Positions 2,661 to 12,400 of a stretch of 64,000 bases of DNA are shown here, piece by piece. Both the position numbers and the translations under genes were made by a program. The stretch comes from Cloeon dipterum (lineage: Eukaryota; Arthropoda; Insecta; Ephemeroptera; Baetidae). The notes under the pieces are model-generated. The model was not told the DNA's origin. It saw only the letters and a program-made list of their open reading frames with translations, and searched no databases. Position 1 is the stretch's first letter, and each line of letters starts with the position of its first letter. The DNA lies in NCBI RefSeq assembly GCF_949628265.1, contig NC_088790.1, positions 3,166,545 through 3,230,544 of the forward strand. Reading direction: 5' to 3'.

Positions 2661-3542
2661 AATTTTGATTCAAGACTGGTTAAGCAACGAAATTGCAATA
2701 AGCATTCTCCTGCAGAAGCAGTATATTACCTGTTGAATGTTTTATATCTTTGCGACAGCAGTTATATTTTATGAACTCTGACCACAAATGATTTTATGCT
2801 TTAGCTGAATATTTTTAAAGGTTTCGACATTTTTCTGTGTTTATATTTTTGTAAGAGACTGAAACACTCAAATAATGATAACTGTCGCACATCTCATTAC
2901 GTGCTATGAAATTTTAAACGAAAGACAATAAATAAGGGTGATAATTCAGAAGAAGTCTCAACGTTTTAGTTTTTTATATACAGTGTATATATTCCTATAG
3001 AAAAGGGTTCGAAATCGAAATTTCCTTCAATATATACTCCACTTGACAAGAAAAATCGATAATATGGGTAATTTTTTTCTGAAAACGTTCAATTTCTAGA
3101 TGTCTACCAGGGAAATGGCCCATGACTCATTCTAATAATTTGATGAGTAATTTCTAAGCTGATTTTTGTCACTACGAAAATTATATTAAATCTTTTAATG
3201 ATTTTGTTACATTTTCAATAATATTTTCGCAAGTAAAAAATATGATTCATGAATTTTTTTTTGTCAAAATATAAAAATGGGAAAAATCCATCAGCCATTA
3301 AAGACTTACAAAGCTTGTATTTAATCAAAAAGGGAAATTTCAAATTTTTCTGGAACGTCTAATATGACCCACTGACTTATTTGTCTCAGCGAAATTGAGC
3401 AGAAACTGCTTAAATCCAATGGCTCAAATTGGTGCTCTATCAATCGACAAATAATGCTGCATGGAATGAGAAACTTTTATTTTATCTGCAAAATTACATA
3501 AATAAACCTATATCAAAAATCATTATTTAAAAAACCACAAAA
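2661..3542. other. intergenic gap between convergent Dicer and CTLD-OBP genes
   Basis: Apart from the Dicer polyadenylation signal (2927-2932) and a minus-strand aataaa (plus-strand tttatt at 3476-3481) for the neighbouring gene, I see only AT-rich sequence here, with no open frame worth calling. Confidence 0.6.
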
Positions 3543-6500
3543 TTAAATTGGTTTTTCGCATATGGCCGGATACGTATCAAAAGTAGCAACAGTCGCTATC
3601 CTGGCTGACGAACTCGAAGGGTCACTAAGTCGAACCGCAACCACCCTGTTTGCATTGCTGACAAGCTGCCCACCGAGATAGACGAACGAGTTGTCCAACG
3701 GCACCGCACTGGGACACCACGAAAAGAAATCTGAACTCTGAAAGTTGAACGCACTGACGAGGAGCGTTGCGTCTTGCTTAAAAGTTGAAATTATTTGGCC
3801 TGTTGGAAATAAAGAAAAGGGTTATATTCATTAATTCCTATTAATGAGGCCGGAGGATACCATTATTCGCGCTGTTAAAACACTGCAATTCTTCATTGGT
3901 TTCAAATTGGGCCAATCGCCATCCGTACTTGCAACAATTTTCGTGCGCTTGTTCGAAAGTCTAATTTGAAAAATAATAATTTATAATTGTTCCATCTATT
4001 GGAAGGTTTTCATACCATGAGAGTGGTTAAGACCAAGTAAAAGTTGCCGCAGGCGGAGACAAAATAATAGCCATTCGAGTTGGAGATGTCTTTTTACAGA
4101 AATAAATTATGTGAGGCATTTTTAAATGGTATTTTATGCTGCAATTGGAAAAATTGCCAAAAGAAATAGATCCCCGTTATTTATGGTTCGTTAGATATTT
4201 TAGAAGACGAAATTTTAAATCTATTTTCTACTCCGGATTAAAATATGACCAATAGAGGTGAGCACCCCGAAACACATTCAGCTCGCTAGGGGAAGTCAAG
4301 CCAGGTCAAACGGTGTGTAGTTTTTGCATTTCTAACATTTAGAACTCGAGATTTGGCGCTTACAAAATTTGTGTTTTTCGAAATTCAAAATTGAATTTCT
4401 CAAAAACAAAGCCGAGTACCACCTTGAAATGTTCCCAAATGTTGACACGTGCCTTGAGACCTATTTCGGAAGGGCGTTTCGGATTTTTCAAATCCAAAAA
4501 AAATAAAAACACCCAGAAATGAGCCTTGGTGACCTTACACCTTGACCGATGACCTAAAATTTGGTGTTCATTCGATCGGGATTGGCGAGAGGAGTTCGGC
4601 GCATACTTTAACCAACTCAAAATAACGTAAATTTTTCTTTTAACAAATTTTCATCTTAAAACTCCGTAGAAAAAAATTGGATTAATAGAGCAGGGCTCTC
4701 TCCTCAACTAACTTACCTGTCAAATAATTTGTCGCAACTCCAGACTCGACTAGCTAATTAAGAATCAAAAATAATTTTTTTGTTTATTCGGTTGTCGAAT
4801 TTATACGAAATTGATTACCTGCGTGTTACAAGTGAGATTTTCCGGACACGCTGGCTGCATGCTGGGCCAGCCTCTTCCTTCCTGCACACGCAAAAATGAA
4901 TATTCATTCTTATATATCAATCATTTTTCTGCCTTGCCATGTTCGTGTCCAAATCTGCGCTGCCAACAGCGATCATTTCCGCCACTGTGTCAGGCGCATT
5001 ATCTGTGCCGCATTTAAAAAGCCTTGCTGCCGTTTCGCACGCGTCGTCGCTCACTGTCAGTTTTAATTAATTCTCAACAACTACTCTTCGATAATGAATG
5101 TTACAATTTACCAGGCTTTTTGTTGCACAAATCGTAAATGTGCAAGTCCTTTTGCAATGTTTCATCGTCGCCAACCTTCAACTGAGCTTCAACGAATTTG
5201 ATTATTTGCCAGTCGACTGGAACCCCATTGACAATCTGTGAAACATAACGCTTTTTATTTGTTTTTTTTTTAAACACGCGGTTTGTTACCAGTCCTGCGT
5301 TTTCACCAATACACCGCAAAAAGCACTGAACGTTGAGAATTTAGAAATTAATCATGGTGAAATTAATTCTGATTTTAATATACCTTAAAATTGTGTGTGT
5401 ATGATGGTGCTGTTAGCAAGGAGTCAATTTCAGCTGAAACCAAAAGTCATTTTAGACCAAATATTGAGACTTTGTTGGCTAGGCACCAAAACATAATATT
5501 AACGTGATTTATTAAATCAAGCAAGCGCTTAGCTCGGCTGCGAAAGCCGTTTCTTGCACATTAAATAGGCATTCTTGCACTTTTGCAAGGCGTTCTTGCA
5601 CGTTAAATTGAACTTCTTGTGAAAGTCCACCAAATTACATCGACAACAAAGACCCGAGACCCTTGCCAAAACATAATCTGGATCCTCTCTGCGTCTTTTA
5701 TAAATTTACCTTGGGAAATATTGAAAATATTCATGCATTCCTTTTCCAACATTTTTGTCGTATTTTTGCCTGCAGGTGACTATAAATGCGTATTGATGAC
5801 AATAATTAGCAGTTTTAACGTCTAATGTAACACCAACTTCACAAAGGTGAGCAGCTGCATTCGAACATTCACGGCTTTCCAAAATTCCCTCTTTAAGATT
5901 GAGTGAAACGCACGTATCGCTTGAACTAGGTTGGTTGCGTCCCCACAGTTCGGAATTTTCGTCGAAAAATTGCTTCCGTCCACACCACGAAAATGTACCC
6001 GGCAATCTTCTGTCAGTTGCACTTGTCCAAAAACTCCCGTTGAAAAAAGGGTCAGCTTAAAAAATGAAAAATGTAAATTTGAATTGAAAATTAAAAAATG
6101 CTTACTGCCTGCCAAATCCTTCAAACATTCCATTTTCTTGACACTTTCAATGCTGACCGACCTCATACCGATTCGCTCGCAGAAGCACTTTGCTTCGAAC
6201 CAGCTTGACTAAATTGTAAATTTGATTGTTTATTGTATTTTTTAAAATTAATAGCTTTACGTTTGTCGATGGTGCGCCAAACACGAACATGTTTCCACAG
6301 CTTTTATTCCAACGACCATATATCGATGCCCCTAAATTAAGAATAATTATTTATTTGGCTAAATAAATCAACTTGTTTGGGGAAGCACTAAAACTTGATT
6401 CGAGCAAAATAAATAAATTCAGCCCAAAGAGCACCACCCAAATAGGCAGGGGGTGAGTTCTATCCTCTCTAAAGTCTTAATAATTAATCATGATGACGTC

Positions 6501-9052
6501 AAGTCTGTTCGAAATCTGGGCAAAATTTGGCTAATTTCAAAATGCAAAAAAATAAAAAAGCATACGTTTTTTTAATTCACAAGTCAGAATATTTTGAAAG
6601 AGATAAAAATACTGCGTCGCCAGTCACCATGATACTCTCCATTAAATGGGGCACTTTTTAGCAATTTTTAAACTTGAAATTTTTTTTATTTCAATGATCC
6701 CAAAAAAATCTTGAGCATGTCATAAACTAAATTTTCCTTACCAGCCAAGTTATTGCCGTCAGAGGTGAAGAGAGATTCCTGTTTTGAGCGTATTGTTAAT
6801 TTAATTAGGAGAACCTATAGTTTTATTTCAAATTACGTTTTTCTTGCAAGCGACTCCACATTCCGGGACTGTACGCTTTGGTTTGAGAGCTCCCTGCAAA
6901 ATTATTTTAGTTTAAGAAGTGACTCATTTCAATTATTTCTGTTGAATAAAACCTTGCACGCTGGCATGTAGCGCCACGAGCAGTTTCTGTATGTCCAAGA
7001 AATGGCAGGAGCCTCGCTAGAAACGTTCCTCGCCACTTGCATCCGTAGACAGTCGAGCCCATTGGGTACACTTTTCACCCCGACACGCTTGTTACTTGGA
7101 CACCAAACGCCCCGACTCGTTCCTCCGCTCCAATAGTTGTAATTCAAATTCCAGAATGCTAAATATGACATTTTTGGTTATTATTTGGTTCAAATAAATT
7201 ATTAATTATTACACTTGGCAAAATTTTGCAGACAATTATGTTCGATTTCATCAGCGATGCTCAAAGGTTCCAGTCCTAAACTGCAGCAAAAATTGTAGTT
7301 CTCTTCCCAAGTTAACTAAATATGAAAATGGTTCAAATTTATGATTTGAATTAACATTTTTATTTACAGGCCGATTTCCAAATAAGAAATTCGTGTTACA
7401 AACAGATATGAATGATCCGTATTTTGTTAAATCTGTCAGGCAGGAGAAAAGTATTTTTATTTAAAGATTTAAGTAAATTTTTTGGCTGATTTTACCATCC
7501 TGATTTAAAAGTGAGTTCTGAAATTAAATAAAATGTATCAACAACTTCAGTTATTTAAACGGAATTACATTTCTAAAGCACTCTTTTTCACAATTTTCCT
7601 GTTAAAAATTATTTTAATAGTTCGTAAAATCAAGCAAAATCATTGAAATTTCTCATTACAGGTCTTTCAGTACTGGTCGTTTCTAATGCATTAGGTGTAA
7701 CATCCGTCTCTGCTTTTCCGTCACACAAATTTCGATATGAATTAATGGTTAGCCTTAACAAAAAATAAAAATCAGACAAACCTGCCAACGTCCGGTCGTC
7801 ATTAAATTTGGAGGTTGTGCCAGAAACCTCATTTTCAGCTGTCACTTATCAAAATTAATGCAATTTTCTGATTAACAAGAACATGGTTTAAATCTACCTT
7901 CTTGCTCAGTTGGTCTCAGAAGATCAGCGTCAACCTGCTGGACCTTCTTTTTTTTATTTAATTTTCTGTTCTGAGTAATTTATTTTACTGTGGACTCTGT
8001 TGTAATTTCTGTTGATATTGTTTTTTCTGGGGCTTCTGTCTCATTGCGTCTTTTCTTATTCGAGGAGCCGGAACATAAACTAGGTTTGGCGCCGCAGCAT
8101 CGTATTATATACGCTCGTCTAGTGCTGGTTACTTTATTAGCTTTACTCAGCACGTGCGTCACTTTCCCTACAGGATACAGATTTATGTATGGACTACTTA
8201 ATTTTTGAATTTTGTGTCATGGTCCTGCAACCTTGGCCGAGTTCTTTTGAGGTGTTTTAAATTGGCACACGTTTAACTATTTTTTTTTTAAAATACCTCT
8301 CTGGTCTATCACGGCTATCTTGATTACTTTTTGATTCTTTCCTCCTCGTTGAACCTTCCTCAGCGGGCTTGCACTCTGAAGAGTTTGTACAAAACTTTAA
8401 GAAATTTCTTGAAATTTGCCATTTTTAGGATTTTTCCAATATTTTCAAACAGAAAACCGCGTTGGAGAAATAATATTGAAAAATAAATAATATAAAATAT
8501 TATTTTATTTTTACGGCTTGTCGTACATTTTGAAATTCTGTATTGTGGCTTTCTTAAAATCAAGCTTTATTTTTACTTTTTACGAATCAATTTTTAAAAT
8601 GGCTTATTTTATATAATAAATTGAGAAGAATAAATTTTCATGTGCTCTTCCGTATTTTCCAAGATTGTTGCTGAATTATTAAGATTAAATCCGTAGTTCT
8701 ATTTATAAATCTAACATTTTTAGAAATTAAAATAAATTGTCAATCTAGAATCTAGATGACAATTTCCGAGAGATTTCTATCTAATCTATTAGCTTTTATA
8801 GCCGTATGTAAAAATTATCAAAAATTCAATTTGAACTCGAAATCCGCGAGTAGAGCAAATATTTTCATATAAATTGTGTTGTTTAGGATAGAAGTGAGAA
8901 AAAGGCATTTTTTCTGATTAATAGATGCATTCCCCTTTTTAAATAATAAGTTAATAAGATATCATTTCCCCGCAATATACAGTACTTACAATGGCAAGTA
9001 GACAACCAAGAACGATGCAAATAACAAGGCTGTTGTAGGGAACGAATTTCAT
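3543..9052 (-). CDS. secreted multidomain protein: CTLD - CTLD - odorant-binding domain - CTLD
   Basis: Hand-built model, 25 exons from high to low coordinate: 9052-8990, 8375-8297, 8167-7989, 7970-7898, 7844-7782, 7709-7660, 7517-7496, 7432-7368, 7315-7213, 7158-6953, 6893-6837, 6778-6742, 6331-6261, 6208-6106, 6055-5834, 5769-5710, 5433-5384, 5325-5290, 5235-5112, 5053-4938, 4881-4819, 4753-4717, 4089-4016, 3960-3861, 3799-3543. All phases agree; 2310 nt, 769 residues. Residues 1-21 are a signal peptide (MKFVPYNSLVICIVLGCLLA), followed by a basic and Ser/Thr-rich linker to about 176. CTLD-A is about 177-301 (WEENYNFCCSLGLEPLSI), CTLD-B 333-464 (FWTSATD and LWGRNQPSSSDTC), the OBP domain about 465-593, and CTLD-C 627-769 (CCKYGWRLAQFET, final YPAICEKP). 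No CTLD has a plain EPN or QPD sugar motif, so calcium-dependent sugar binding is doubtful. The weak joint is exon 20 to 21, which needs a GC-AG intron; without it the protein stops at 4917 after the OBP domain. Confidence 0.8.
4917..5769 (-). other. odorant-binding-protein (PBP/GOBP-type) domain embedded in the CTLD gene
   Basis: Exons 5769-5710, 5433-5384, 5325-5290, 5235-5112 and 5053-4938 encode the six-cysteine OBP pattern: C1-x25-C2-x3-C3-x43-C4-x9-C5-x8-C6, within the ranges of classic insect OBPs. Key stretches are MLEKECMNIFNIS (C1), HNFKCFLRCIGENAGL (C2, C3), IYDLCNKKP (C4) and DDACETAARLFKCG (C5, C6). The first exon joins the last CTLD-B exon (5834) in frame through a phase-1 intron. 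OBPs are small secreted carriers of hydrophobic ligands. There is no signal peptide at the domain's own start, which supports its being internal to the larger gene. If the GC donor at 4936-4937 is not used, the reading frame ends at TGA 4917-4919. Confidence 0.85.
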
Positions 9053-9442: not shown

Positions 9443-12400
9443 TTACGCGAAGTATTGTTCATTGGCGTGCGAGGAGAGCCACTCGGTGACAGTTTTGTGG
9501 TGCTGGGAATGCCACTGCACATTCAACTGGACATTTTCCAGCGCCTGCTTCACTTGCAATTTCGAGTCTTTGAGGTACTCGGCGTTCAAATCAATGAACG
9601 ATTTAATCTGTCATCATACAGGGATTTAAATTAAAGAAAAATTTATTAATTATCAATAATTACCTGGTTCAGGTCGTATTCTGTGTTCATCGACTCGCAA
9701 ATAGCTCCAACGAAGCGTCCAATGCGATTGAATTTTGGCTTAAAGCTGAAATTTGAGTTGATTTAGGTGCATTGAAGAGTATGTATCAGTACTTACAAGG
9801 CGTGAATATCCTTGATTCGAGTGAAAAGAAATTCTCTGGCCACGTAAAAGCCGCTCGAGCTGCGAGCCACGGAATAAAACACGCTAAGAGCATCTTGCTT
9901 GCGGATTCCTGTAGTTTCATTCAACGACATGTCCAAATATCTGCGATAAATTTTTGTTATGAAATTAAGTTTAACCTATTTCAATGCGTTTACCTGTGCA
10001 GCAGCCACATTTCCTTCGCACATCCTAAAGCAGAGAGCAGTTTGCCTTTTTCTGCGCCGACGTTCGAGCCCAAAAATCTTTTCCACACAAAGTCCCAGGT
10101 TGGCTGCCCTCCGGATTTCACAGCAGCGCAATAGACCACGCCTCTCAGGTCAACAGGAATGCTTCAGAAATTTAAAATAAATTAAAATTACGAGAAAAGC
10201 AATAATTCAGCCTACGGATTAACGACGTCAGGGTCCTCGCTTTGTTCCTGCCAGGTTTTGAAAAGGGCAGTGGCCCTGGCTTCGCAGTCAGACACTCCCA
10301 TGGTGCATGACCAGCTTAGAACCTGAGAGCGGTGTTTGGTTTGCGGCAGAGTGTCATCAGCCTTTCTCGCCCTATTAATTATATAATCAATACTTGGATT
10401 TTTTAAAAATTTAAAATAAAATTTCACCTCAAGGGCTCGTCAAGTTCCTCGTAAATGGGTGTGAGGAGGGTTCTCATAAAGTTTCTGAAAGGTCCAAAGC
10501 CGGCGCCCCGTCTCGTCATCCTGGTGAAGTAGGCAAGGTTCGAGAAAGCGGCTCGCCAGGGCAAGTACTCTCGCTCTTGACGCAGGTAGCGGAGAAGGTT
10601 CAAGGCCGAGTTGTACTCGAGCAAGCCTGCCCTGGCCAGGTCAAGAGCGTCGTCGATCAATTGTGCTCTGTTCAAGCCAGGAATTCCTCCGTGGTTTTTC
10701 TCGGTCCTCAGCGCAGTCGAGAGCAATTCCCAATTTTTCAGGTCATAATTTATCCGGTACAAAGCTGGAAAATTATTGGTTCAATCTAAAAAATTTGAGG
10801 GATTATTAATTTACCAGTGGCATTGACGTTGAGCAGGAGCCATTGGTCCTCTTTAGGCAGATCAGTCAGAGTTGCGTTTGATGTGTTCATCCAGAAGCGA
10901 GGTTTGGTGCTGATGTCGAGAAGCGCATTCGACGGATCCGTGTAGCTGATGGGCACCCACCACAAGCTCTCGTCGCTCGACCGACCGAGCCAATCAGTCA
11001 CAAAACGATTCTGGGGGAAGATATAGGCAACTGGTGAAGCAAAAGTGTGTTGCAAGTTGCTGTCTACGGCCAATGCAGGCGTTACAATTTACAATATTAG
11101 AAACCCTGGCTTTCGGTTATTGGTATTACCTGCGTAAGCTCAGCAGTTCCTGCCTCGTAATTGCGCATGACGTGAATGACAGGATATCCAGTTTGGAGGG
11201 TCCAGCTGTCCATGATTTCTTTTACTGTCGCTCTGCCCGGTGCAGCTGACTTATTCTCAGGATCTGTCAAACAGTTGAGGTTTATCAACAGCCAAATTTT
11301 ACCCCTCTAAACAAATCATGGCTCGTGGCTTCTGAAAATCTCTACGGGTTCTTTCACCTGGGTGGCATCCGAATAATTCTGAAAAGCGTTGCTGGCGGTG
11401 CGGGTGCAAGTGCAGTGCGCGGTTCTTTTTTCTGCGGCGCAGCATTCTGCTACGATATCGCCAGCCACCTTTCCAGCATTATCAACCTCAGTTCAAAACC
11501 GTTCGACATTAAAATCCCCCCGCACCCCATTGCTGAAAGAAATATGCCAACGCACTCTTTTCTGCCTCTTACCTTTTGCGGAATCGAGTTGCGCTTGCTC
11601 CTCTAAACAAGCCCACAAAGCGTCTTGGGCCGCGTTGTTGAACTGGTGGGCCTTCAGGTATCTGTTCACGCCGCGTCTAAAAGTGCCCTCGCCCAAAAAG
11701 TGGTTCATCATCCTCAGAATAATGGCACCTGAGCAGAAATTAATTTATCTTTCAGTTTCTCTTGCGAACTCAGAGGCAAAATTCGTACAGTGAGAAGCAA
11801 AATGCAGCTTTTCAAATTGAGAACGCAATTTAGAGTCTCACCGTGAGATCTAAAAACATCCAGCCGTACTCACGGTGTGACACAAAGTTGCGTTCTTAAT
11901 TTGAGTGCTACATTTTTCTCAGAATGCGTACCTTTGGAGTATGAGATCGCATCAAACAGTTGCCAGATTTCATTCGCATTCTTGATGTTATTCGAGACTG
12001 AATGCGAAGATTGCAAAGAGTCCACGGAGAAGACGGTAAGAAGAGACTCCGTCATTTGGTCTTCCAGCGAGTTCCATGTTGGCTGGGCCTAATACATTTA
12101 ATTTATTTAAAAAATAATACTACTTAAAAATGAATCAATTTACATGAGAAGTTCCCAGCGCTGCGACGTAAGTAGCAAATCCTTCATTAAGCCAAATATC
12201 ATCCCACCACTTCATGGTGACCAAATTTCCAAACCACTGGTGTGCTAATTCGTGAGCAACCACGCGCGTAACGGACTCTTTGGAGCTGGCGGGCGAAACT
12301 CCTTCCTCGTGCAGCATAGCCGTTTCTCTATGTACTTCAAATTAGGGTTTTTTCGTTAATGCTATCGTTTCTCGTTTTACCTGTAAGTGACCAATCCCCA

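Follow-up and report, generated by a model that had tools for sequence, protein, structure and literature searches.

Odorant-binding proteins (OBPs) and proteins with C-type lectin-like domains (CTLDs) are two well-studied insect domain families. Long forms of the mosquito D7 salivary proteins carry two OBP-like domains and are not known to carry a CTLD, and the multi-CTLD endocytic receptors (mannose receptor, Endo180/uPARAP) have, to our knowledge, no OBP. In CTLDs, an EPN or QPD motif together with WND marks Ca2+-dependent sugar binding. Stand-alone OBPs are approximately 120–170 residues long (PMC13205551). Here we describe a gene in a 64,000-nucleotide stretch of the mayfly Cloeon dipterum genome (NC_088790.1, positions 3,166,545 to 3,230,544; hereafter the window, to which coordinates refer) that places an OBP between CTLDs. 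We consider this locus, with a probability of roughly 0.85, to be a true single-gene fusion that encodes a secreted multidomain protein and belongs to a large mayfly family.

The gene lies on the minus strand from 9052 to 3543. An exon-by-exon rebuild gave 26 exons with agreeing phases and 769 codons plus a stop; the initial annotation, made from the sequence alone, had the same codon number and phase agreement but counted 25 exons. The encoded order is signal peptide, CCG motif and linker, CTLD-A, CTLD-B, six-cysteine OBP and CTLD-C, and the signal peptide in exon 1 fits the earlier proposal of a secreted protein. All introns are GT-AG, except that between OBP and CTLD-C (GC donor, 4937–4882). 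An alternative join between CTLD-B and OBP (5838/5779) leads to a protein of 771 residues, the length of P0001, a deposited C. dipterum protein that carries both Pfam domains and has the same architecture. The features are as follows:

8990..9052, minus strand: exon 1 of the rebuilt model, with start codon and signal peptide MKFVPYNSLVICIVLGCLLAI; helix 2–21 in the P0001 structure model
7660..8375, minus strand: exons 2–6 and introns of the rebuilt model, a basic N-terminal segment with a CCG motif that recurs in the family, then a Ser/Thr/Glu-rich linker
6953..7598, minus strand: exons 7–11 and introns, CTLD-A (99.9% in hhalign to the CTLD-B profile, no Pfam match of its own)
5838..6893, minus strand: exons 12–16 and introns, linker and CTLD-B (last exon 6055–5838)
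5780..5837, minus strand: CTLD-B/OBP intron, GT-AG, phase 0, from the P0001 sequence and paralogue phases (alternative 5833–5770, phase 1)
4938..5779, minus strand: exons 17–21 and introns, six-cysteine OBP domain (PF01395, E 3.3e-12; OBP matches in the PDB)
4882..4937, minus strand: OBP/CTLD-C intron, GC donor, phase 0, same join in P0001; in-frame TGA at 4919–4917 if retained
3543..4881, minus strand: exons 22–26 and introns, CTLD-C and stop TAA (98.9% in hhalign to the CTLD-B profile, no Pfam match of its own)
3476..3481, minus strand: AATAAA polyadenylation-like signal approximately 60 bases past the stop, read from the sequence

A Pfam scan of the joined protein, the kind of check the initial annotation had proposed, returned PF01395 at residues 466–571 (E 3.3e-12, 46.9 bits against a curated cut-off of 22) and PF00059 at 356–463, corresponding to CTLD-B (E 3.5e-8, 34.6 bits, cut-off 22.6). 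Both families are thus recognised in one protein, and the OBP and CTLD-B of the previously proposed CTLD-CTLD-OBP-CTLD order are recovered by Pfam. CTLD-A and CTLD-C, when scanned alone against Pfam, gave no Lectin_C match; in profile comparisons (hhalign) they matched the CTLD-B profile with 99.9% and 98.9% probability, respectively, and four comparisons with the OBP in the same set remained below 0.4%. By this profile comparison only, CTLD-A and CTLD-C are predicted to be homologous to CTLD-B. The N-terminal part, where some relatives carry an additional CTLD, also matches CTLD profiles (95.6–96.6%, hhalign). Among PDB sequences the best match of CTLD-B was the mosquito lectin mosGCTL-1 (E 1.1e-7), with weak matches only for CTLD-C (best the sea raven antifreeze protein, E 0.053), and the OBP part yielded significant profile matches to OBPs in the PDB. 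Its cysteine spacing of 25-3-43-9-8 was reproduced exactly on rebuilding the gene, and six cysteines are present in 23 of 23 OBP rows of the family alignment, which suggests an intact carrier. In a structure model of P0001 (mean predicted local distance difference test score, pLDDT, 60.6) residues 2–21 form a helix, pLDDT falls below 50 at 23–161, the CTLD fold is recovered for CTLD-B and seven helices occupy the OBP part (472–592) at low to middling pLDDT; the list of fold matches is filled by CTLD-B and contains no OBP.

P0001 covers 100% of the window-protein region searched (residues 150–769), and the two proteins are identical in 702 of 775 columns over their whole length. Identity is 127/159 in the N-terminus and linker, 128/147 in CTLD-A, 149/161 in the linker and CTLD-B, 129/134 in the OBP and 169/174 in CTLD-C, the best conserved part. 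Judging by its name, P0001 probably stems from the 2020 C. dipterum annotation, which was made using Augustus with RNA-seq splice hints on an assembly of 1395 scaffolds distinct from the present one (PMC7250882). At the CTLD-B/OBP join P0001 reads CE|SPAGKN, equivalent to window exon ends 5838 and 5779 in phase 0. The initial annotation had placed a phase-1 intron here (5834/5769). Both joins are open in the window DNA, and while the in-frame joining stands, P0001 and the paralogues favour the phase-0 position and disfavour the phase-1 one. The OBP follows CTLD-B in frame and the 58-base intron, read directly, contains no ATG, in agreement with the earlier statement that the OBP has no signal peptide of its own. 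The window gene therefore differs from a stand-alone OBP, which is small and carries a signal peptide itself. At the other end of the OBP, P0001 uses the same GC-AG join (4938/4881) that had been annotated.

When compared with classic insect OBPs (PBP/GOBP, PF01395), the window OBP shares the six cysteines in classic spacing as well as Pfam and PDB profile matches, but it lacks its own signal peptide and is set between CTLDs within a 771-residue protein. Secreted CTLD proteins (Lectin_C, PF00059), including the mosquito GCTLs, differ from the window protein in that the latter has several divergent CTLDs around an OBP, without EPN, QPD or WND. Several CTLDs in a row are common to the window protein and the multi-CTLD endocytic receptors, and such receptors occur among the fold matches; however, the Pfam scan of the window protein showed no CysR, FNII or membrane domain. 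In the D7 long forms, too, an OBP-related domain is part of a larger secreted protein, and there is one weak PDB profile match (6v4c, E 0.0039). The initial annotation knew of no protein with both a CTLD and an OBP, and among the papers listed in the literature searched (titles and starts of abstracts, with most subscription journals and supplements outside its scope) there was no description of one. The fusions constitute a large, apparently undescribed family.

Searches of the genome with the OBP and CTLD-B parts revealed neighbouring CTLD and OBP exons at other loci. Four of these (L039, L040, L041 and L042), modelled by hand, all have the order CTLD-OBP-CTLD, with OBPs approximately 30% identical to that of the window. 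Intron phases are 0 at the CTLD/OBP join (no intron in L041), 1, 0, 0, 1 within the OBP (one missing in L040 and L039), 0 at the OBP/CTLD-C join and then 0, 1, 0, 1. Two missing introns aside, the hand models of the five genes therefore have the same phases at the OBP and CTLD-C, with the paralogue splice sites having been picked with the window gene in mind. The OBP/CTLD-C intron is GT-AG in the models of L040, L041 and L042. In L041 a single uninterrupted exon spans the CTLD into the OBP. A 36-base intron at this join, for which GT and AG are present, was rejected: it is shorter than every modelled intron (at least 41 bases), and annotated relatives read through. L042 has a complete frame of 949 residues with a signal peptide, the CCG motif and a long Thr/Ser-rich stalk. 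Three further loci fetched for weaker OBP matches (L081, L082 and L083) each have a CTLD followed by an OBP when read by eye.

A number of additional features of the paralogues were observed. L039 and L040 are near-identical copies approximately 100 kb apart on contig C4; their OBP blocks differ by 4 non-synonymous and 0 synonymous changes, and the flanking CTLD blocks together by 1 and 8. The OBP changes could reflect diversifying selection on the OBP, although the numbers are small. Two adjacent Thr/Ser-rich stalk exons of L042 (6459–5985) are near-repeats, and the length of the stalk may thus change through duplication of exons. Inverted-repeat insertions resembling miniature inverted-repeat transposable elements occur in introns of L040 (approximately 5280–5900) and at two places in L082. 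Besides window 4937, GC donors are found at L042 3788 and, as candidates, in L040 and L081; such donors, recurring among the fusion genes, might permit regulated shorter isoforms. That of L042 lies inside the OBP, where our model and its annotated counterpart P0002 agree.

We determined how widespread the arrangement is across the 190 Mb genome (ten contigs). A query of 102 residues across the CTLD/OBP join gave 150 matches, with 150 of 362 candidates scored. At no fewer than 104 loci the aligned stretch starts in the CTLD, crosses the join and extends well into the OBP, all in a single frame free of stops (at least 43 on C1, 39 on C4, 10 on C5, 7 on C3 and 5 on C2). This count is based on 105 of the 150 matches, of which 104 extend at least to query residue 97 and one, with its end at 89, was not counted; the other 45 end at 78–91. 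Eight of the 104 loci have just 30–34% identity; seven of them lie on C3 and the other on C5. Matches to OBP exons cluster to at least 127 loci, 111 of them with CTLD evidence upstream, and together with 11 further junction loci this amounts to at least 122 distinct CTLD-OBP loci. The architecture is therefore far commoner than could be known from the window. The OBP loci derive from 6 of 6, 53 of 83 (E <0.001), 5 of 8, 1 of 3, 29 of 44 and the best 150 of 198 matches of the respective searches, and the CTLD evidence from all 125 matches of the CTLD-B search. The share of OBP loci with a CTLD (122/138) is biased upward, because the OBP loci come from fusion-type queries. Two of the 16 OBP loci without CTLD evidence (L081 and L083) do have CTLDs on reading and come on top of the 122; another (C3:3625498) resembles a stand-alone OBP exon and, when used as a genome query, found itself and two weak matches. 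A PF01395 profile search of the whole genome found one exon only, and a Drosophila Obp28a fragment used as genome query found nothing. The N-terminal CCG segment has 117 genome matches at E ≤0.1. For 104 of these, the same strand carries an OBP locus or a junction locus no more than 9 kb further downstream, at a median distance of 3.3 kb. Such a locus lies upstream of 53 of the 117, as expected for clustered genes. Conversely, 105 of the 138 loci have a CCG match 1–9 kb upstream.

A third protein search yielded 23 proteins at E ≤1, all from two members of the Baetidae, C. dipterum (18) and Neocloeon triangulifer (5), so the architecture is also found in a related insect, a search the initial annotation had suggested. 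They are named only as ‘uncharacterized’, ‘hypothetical’ or ‘C-type lectin domain-containing’ and range from 555 to 1592 residues; precomputed Pfam matches include both domains in 19 of the 23. Alignment was restricted to 20 of 24 proteins, leaving out P0007, P0009 and P0024 (no precomputed PF01395) and P0017 (a double model of 1592 residues), and all 20 matched both PF00059 and PF01395 at E ≤0.01. A profile search of 5.8 billion proteins, with 8000 candidates scored, returned P0001 alone, although relatives exist. Trees of the OBP (23 rows after length filters), the preceding CTLD (23) and CTLD-C (18), computed quickly and with the Shimodaira–Hasegawa-like approximate likelihood ratio test as sole support, contain the same two large groups, with support of 98–99 for one and 92–95 for the other. 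The window gene and L040 fall outside both groups on long branches and group together in a single tree, that of the preceding CTLD (83); long-branch joins in these trees may be false. Between-domain distances correlate at 0.92, 0.85 and 0.85 (n = 17; none of 2000 permutations as high). The domain trees largely agree and the Neocloeon proteins are intermixed with those of C. dipterum, which suggests that the fusion probably predates both the duplications of the family and the split between Cloeon and Neocloeon. For the heptageniid mayfly Parafronurus youi, 10 OBPs with masses of up to 27.53 kDa are described in a text without mention of lectin (PMC13205551), a hint that the fusion family is absent from some mayflies or went unnoticed in that study.

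Could adjacent CTLD and OBP genes have been wrongly joined by prediction? Each join of the window gene contains an intron, and that between OBP and CTLD-C is non-canonical. However, the CTLD-OBP join is crossed in one stop-free frame at no fewer than 104 loci, directly so in L041, and for this reason mis-joining was rejected; the shared intron phases and broadly congruent trees also argue against it, leaving it highly improbable. A shortened main product, CTLD-CTLD-OBP, deserves more weight but is still unlikely. In this case the GC-AG intron would often be retained and CTLD-C be confined to one isoform: without splicing, the TGA at 4919–4917 ends the protein after six more codons, giving an OBP-like end, MARQKND. 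Five of the 20 annotated relatives (P0005, P0008, P0012, P0016 and P0023) indeed have no more than 62 residues of CTLD-C, though these models may be incomplete. Against this, P0001 uses the same GC-AG join, the L040, L041 and L042 models have GT-AG at this place, and CTLD-C is the part best conserved between the window protein and P0001. Several points count against a full-length fusion within a large family, the reading we favour. The window fusion is known here from DNA and protein sequences; a GC donor is required at its OBP/CTLD-C join; and the loci counted are places with matches, mostly not built into gene models. The P0001 model is of moderate quality and its fold list covers CTLD-B almost alone, while annotated P0002 differs from our L042 model in having a later start, another CTLD/OBP join (CEAS|TRD) and another CTLD-C. 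Finally, the function that we would assign to the protein, an OBP ligand carrier held at the surface or in mucus by the CTLD-fold modules and CCG segment, is itself tentative.

Under this proposal, an OBP would have been placed between CTLD modules in one ancestral joining, and the fusion would then have spread by gene duplication. The OBP would hold small hydrophobic ligands, with the CTLD-fold modules and the putatively disulfide-forming CCG segment holding the carrier at the surface or in mucus and so keeping it from being washed off the body surface in water. The same fusion may instead act in immunity or scavenging (recognising microbes, lipids or damaged material), a role that we regard as about as likely and no less tentative. 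The family is large and clustered, with Ser/Thr/Pro-rich stalks and several divergent CTLDs, and in this it resembles recognition families; the mosquito mosGCTL-1 is the closest PDB sequence to CTLD-B, and 16 of 24 related rows contain QPD. On the other hand, most C. dipterum OBP genes in the literature are nymphal, and expression is seen in heads and gills for many and in horseradish peroxidase (HRP)-positive cells for some (PMC7250882), an argument that would hold if these are fusion genes. Counted over whole sequences, EPN, QPD and WND are each absent (0) from the window gene and P0001, which makes Ca2+-dependent sugar binding by the window gene unlikely and weakens the glycan-binding part of the function initially proposed. 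The other 24 related rows contain EPN in 6 cases and WND in 2 in addition to the QPD already noted, hence sugar binding elsewhere in the family may differ.

The C. dipterum genome paper lists 191 OBP genes, assigns 121 of 152 analysed to nymphal or pre-nymphal clusters, records gill expression for 82 of 167 and bases a sensory role of the gills on OBP expression; the word ‘lectin’ is absent from its main text (PMC7250882). Many of the 191 may be CTLD fusions. A bolder proposal, which we hold at somewhat short of even odds, is that most of this record OBP expansion is a baetid family of stalked CTLD-OBP-CTLD proteins as opposed to free odorant carriers, and that the chemosensory gills of nymphs would thus be coated with surface-held, diversified ligand catchers for which other insects offer no described counterpart. 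The pairing of the two families, present at no fewer than 122 loci in one genome, has apparently been overlooked, and if many of the 191 are CTLD fusions, both the interpretation of gill OBPs and the way insects are compared by OBP number need revision.

The fusion gene is flanked in the window by two other genes. Upstream, on the minus strand at 9443–11100 and beyond, lies an M1 aminopeptidase-like gene (ERAP1_C domain, E 5e-28). The convergent downstream neighbour, on the plus strand at 685–1132 and approximately 1600–2660, resembles a Dicer-like gene at its RNase III end (Ribonucleas_3_3, E 2.4e-6, under the Pfam cut-off).

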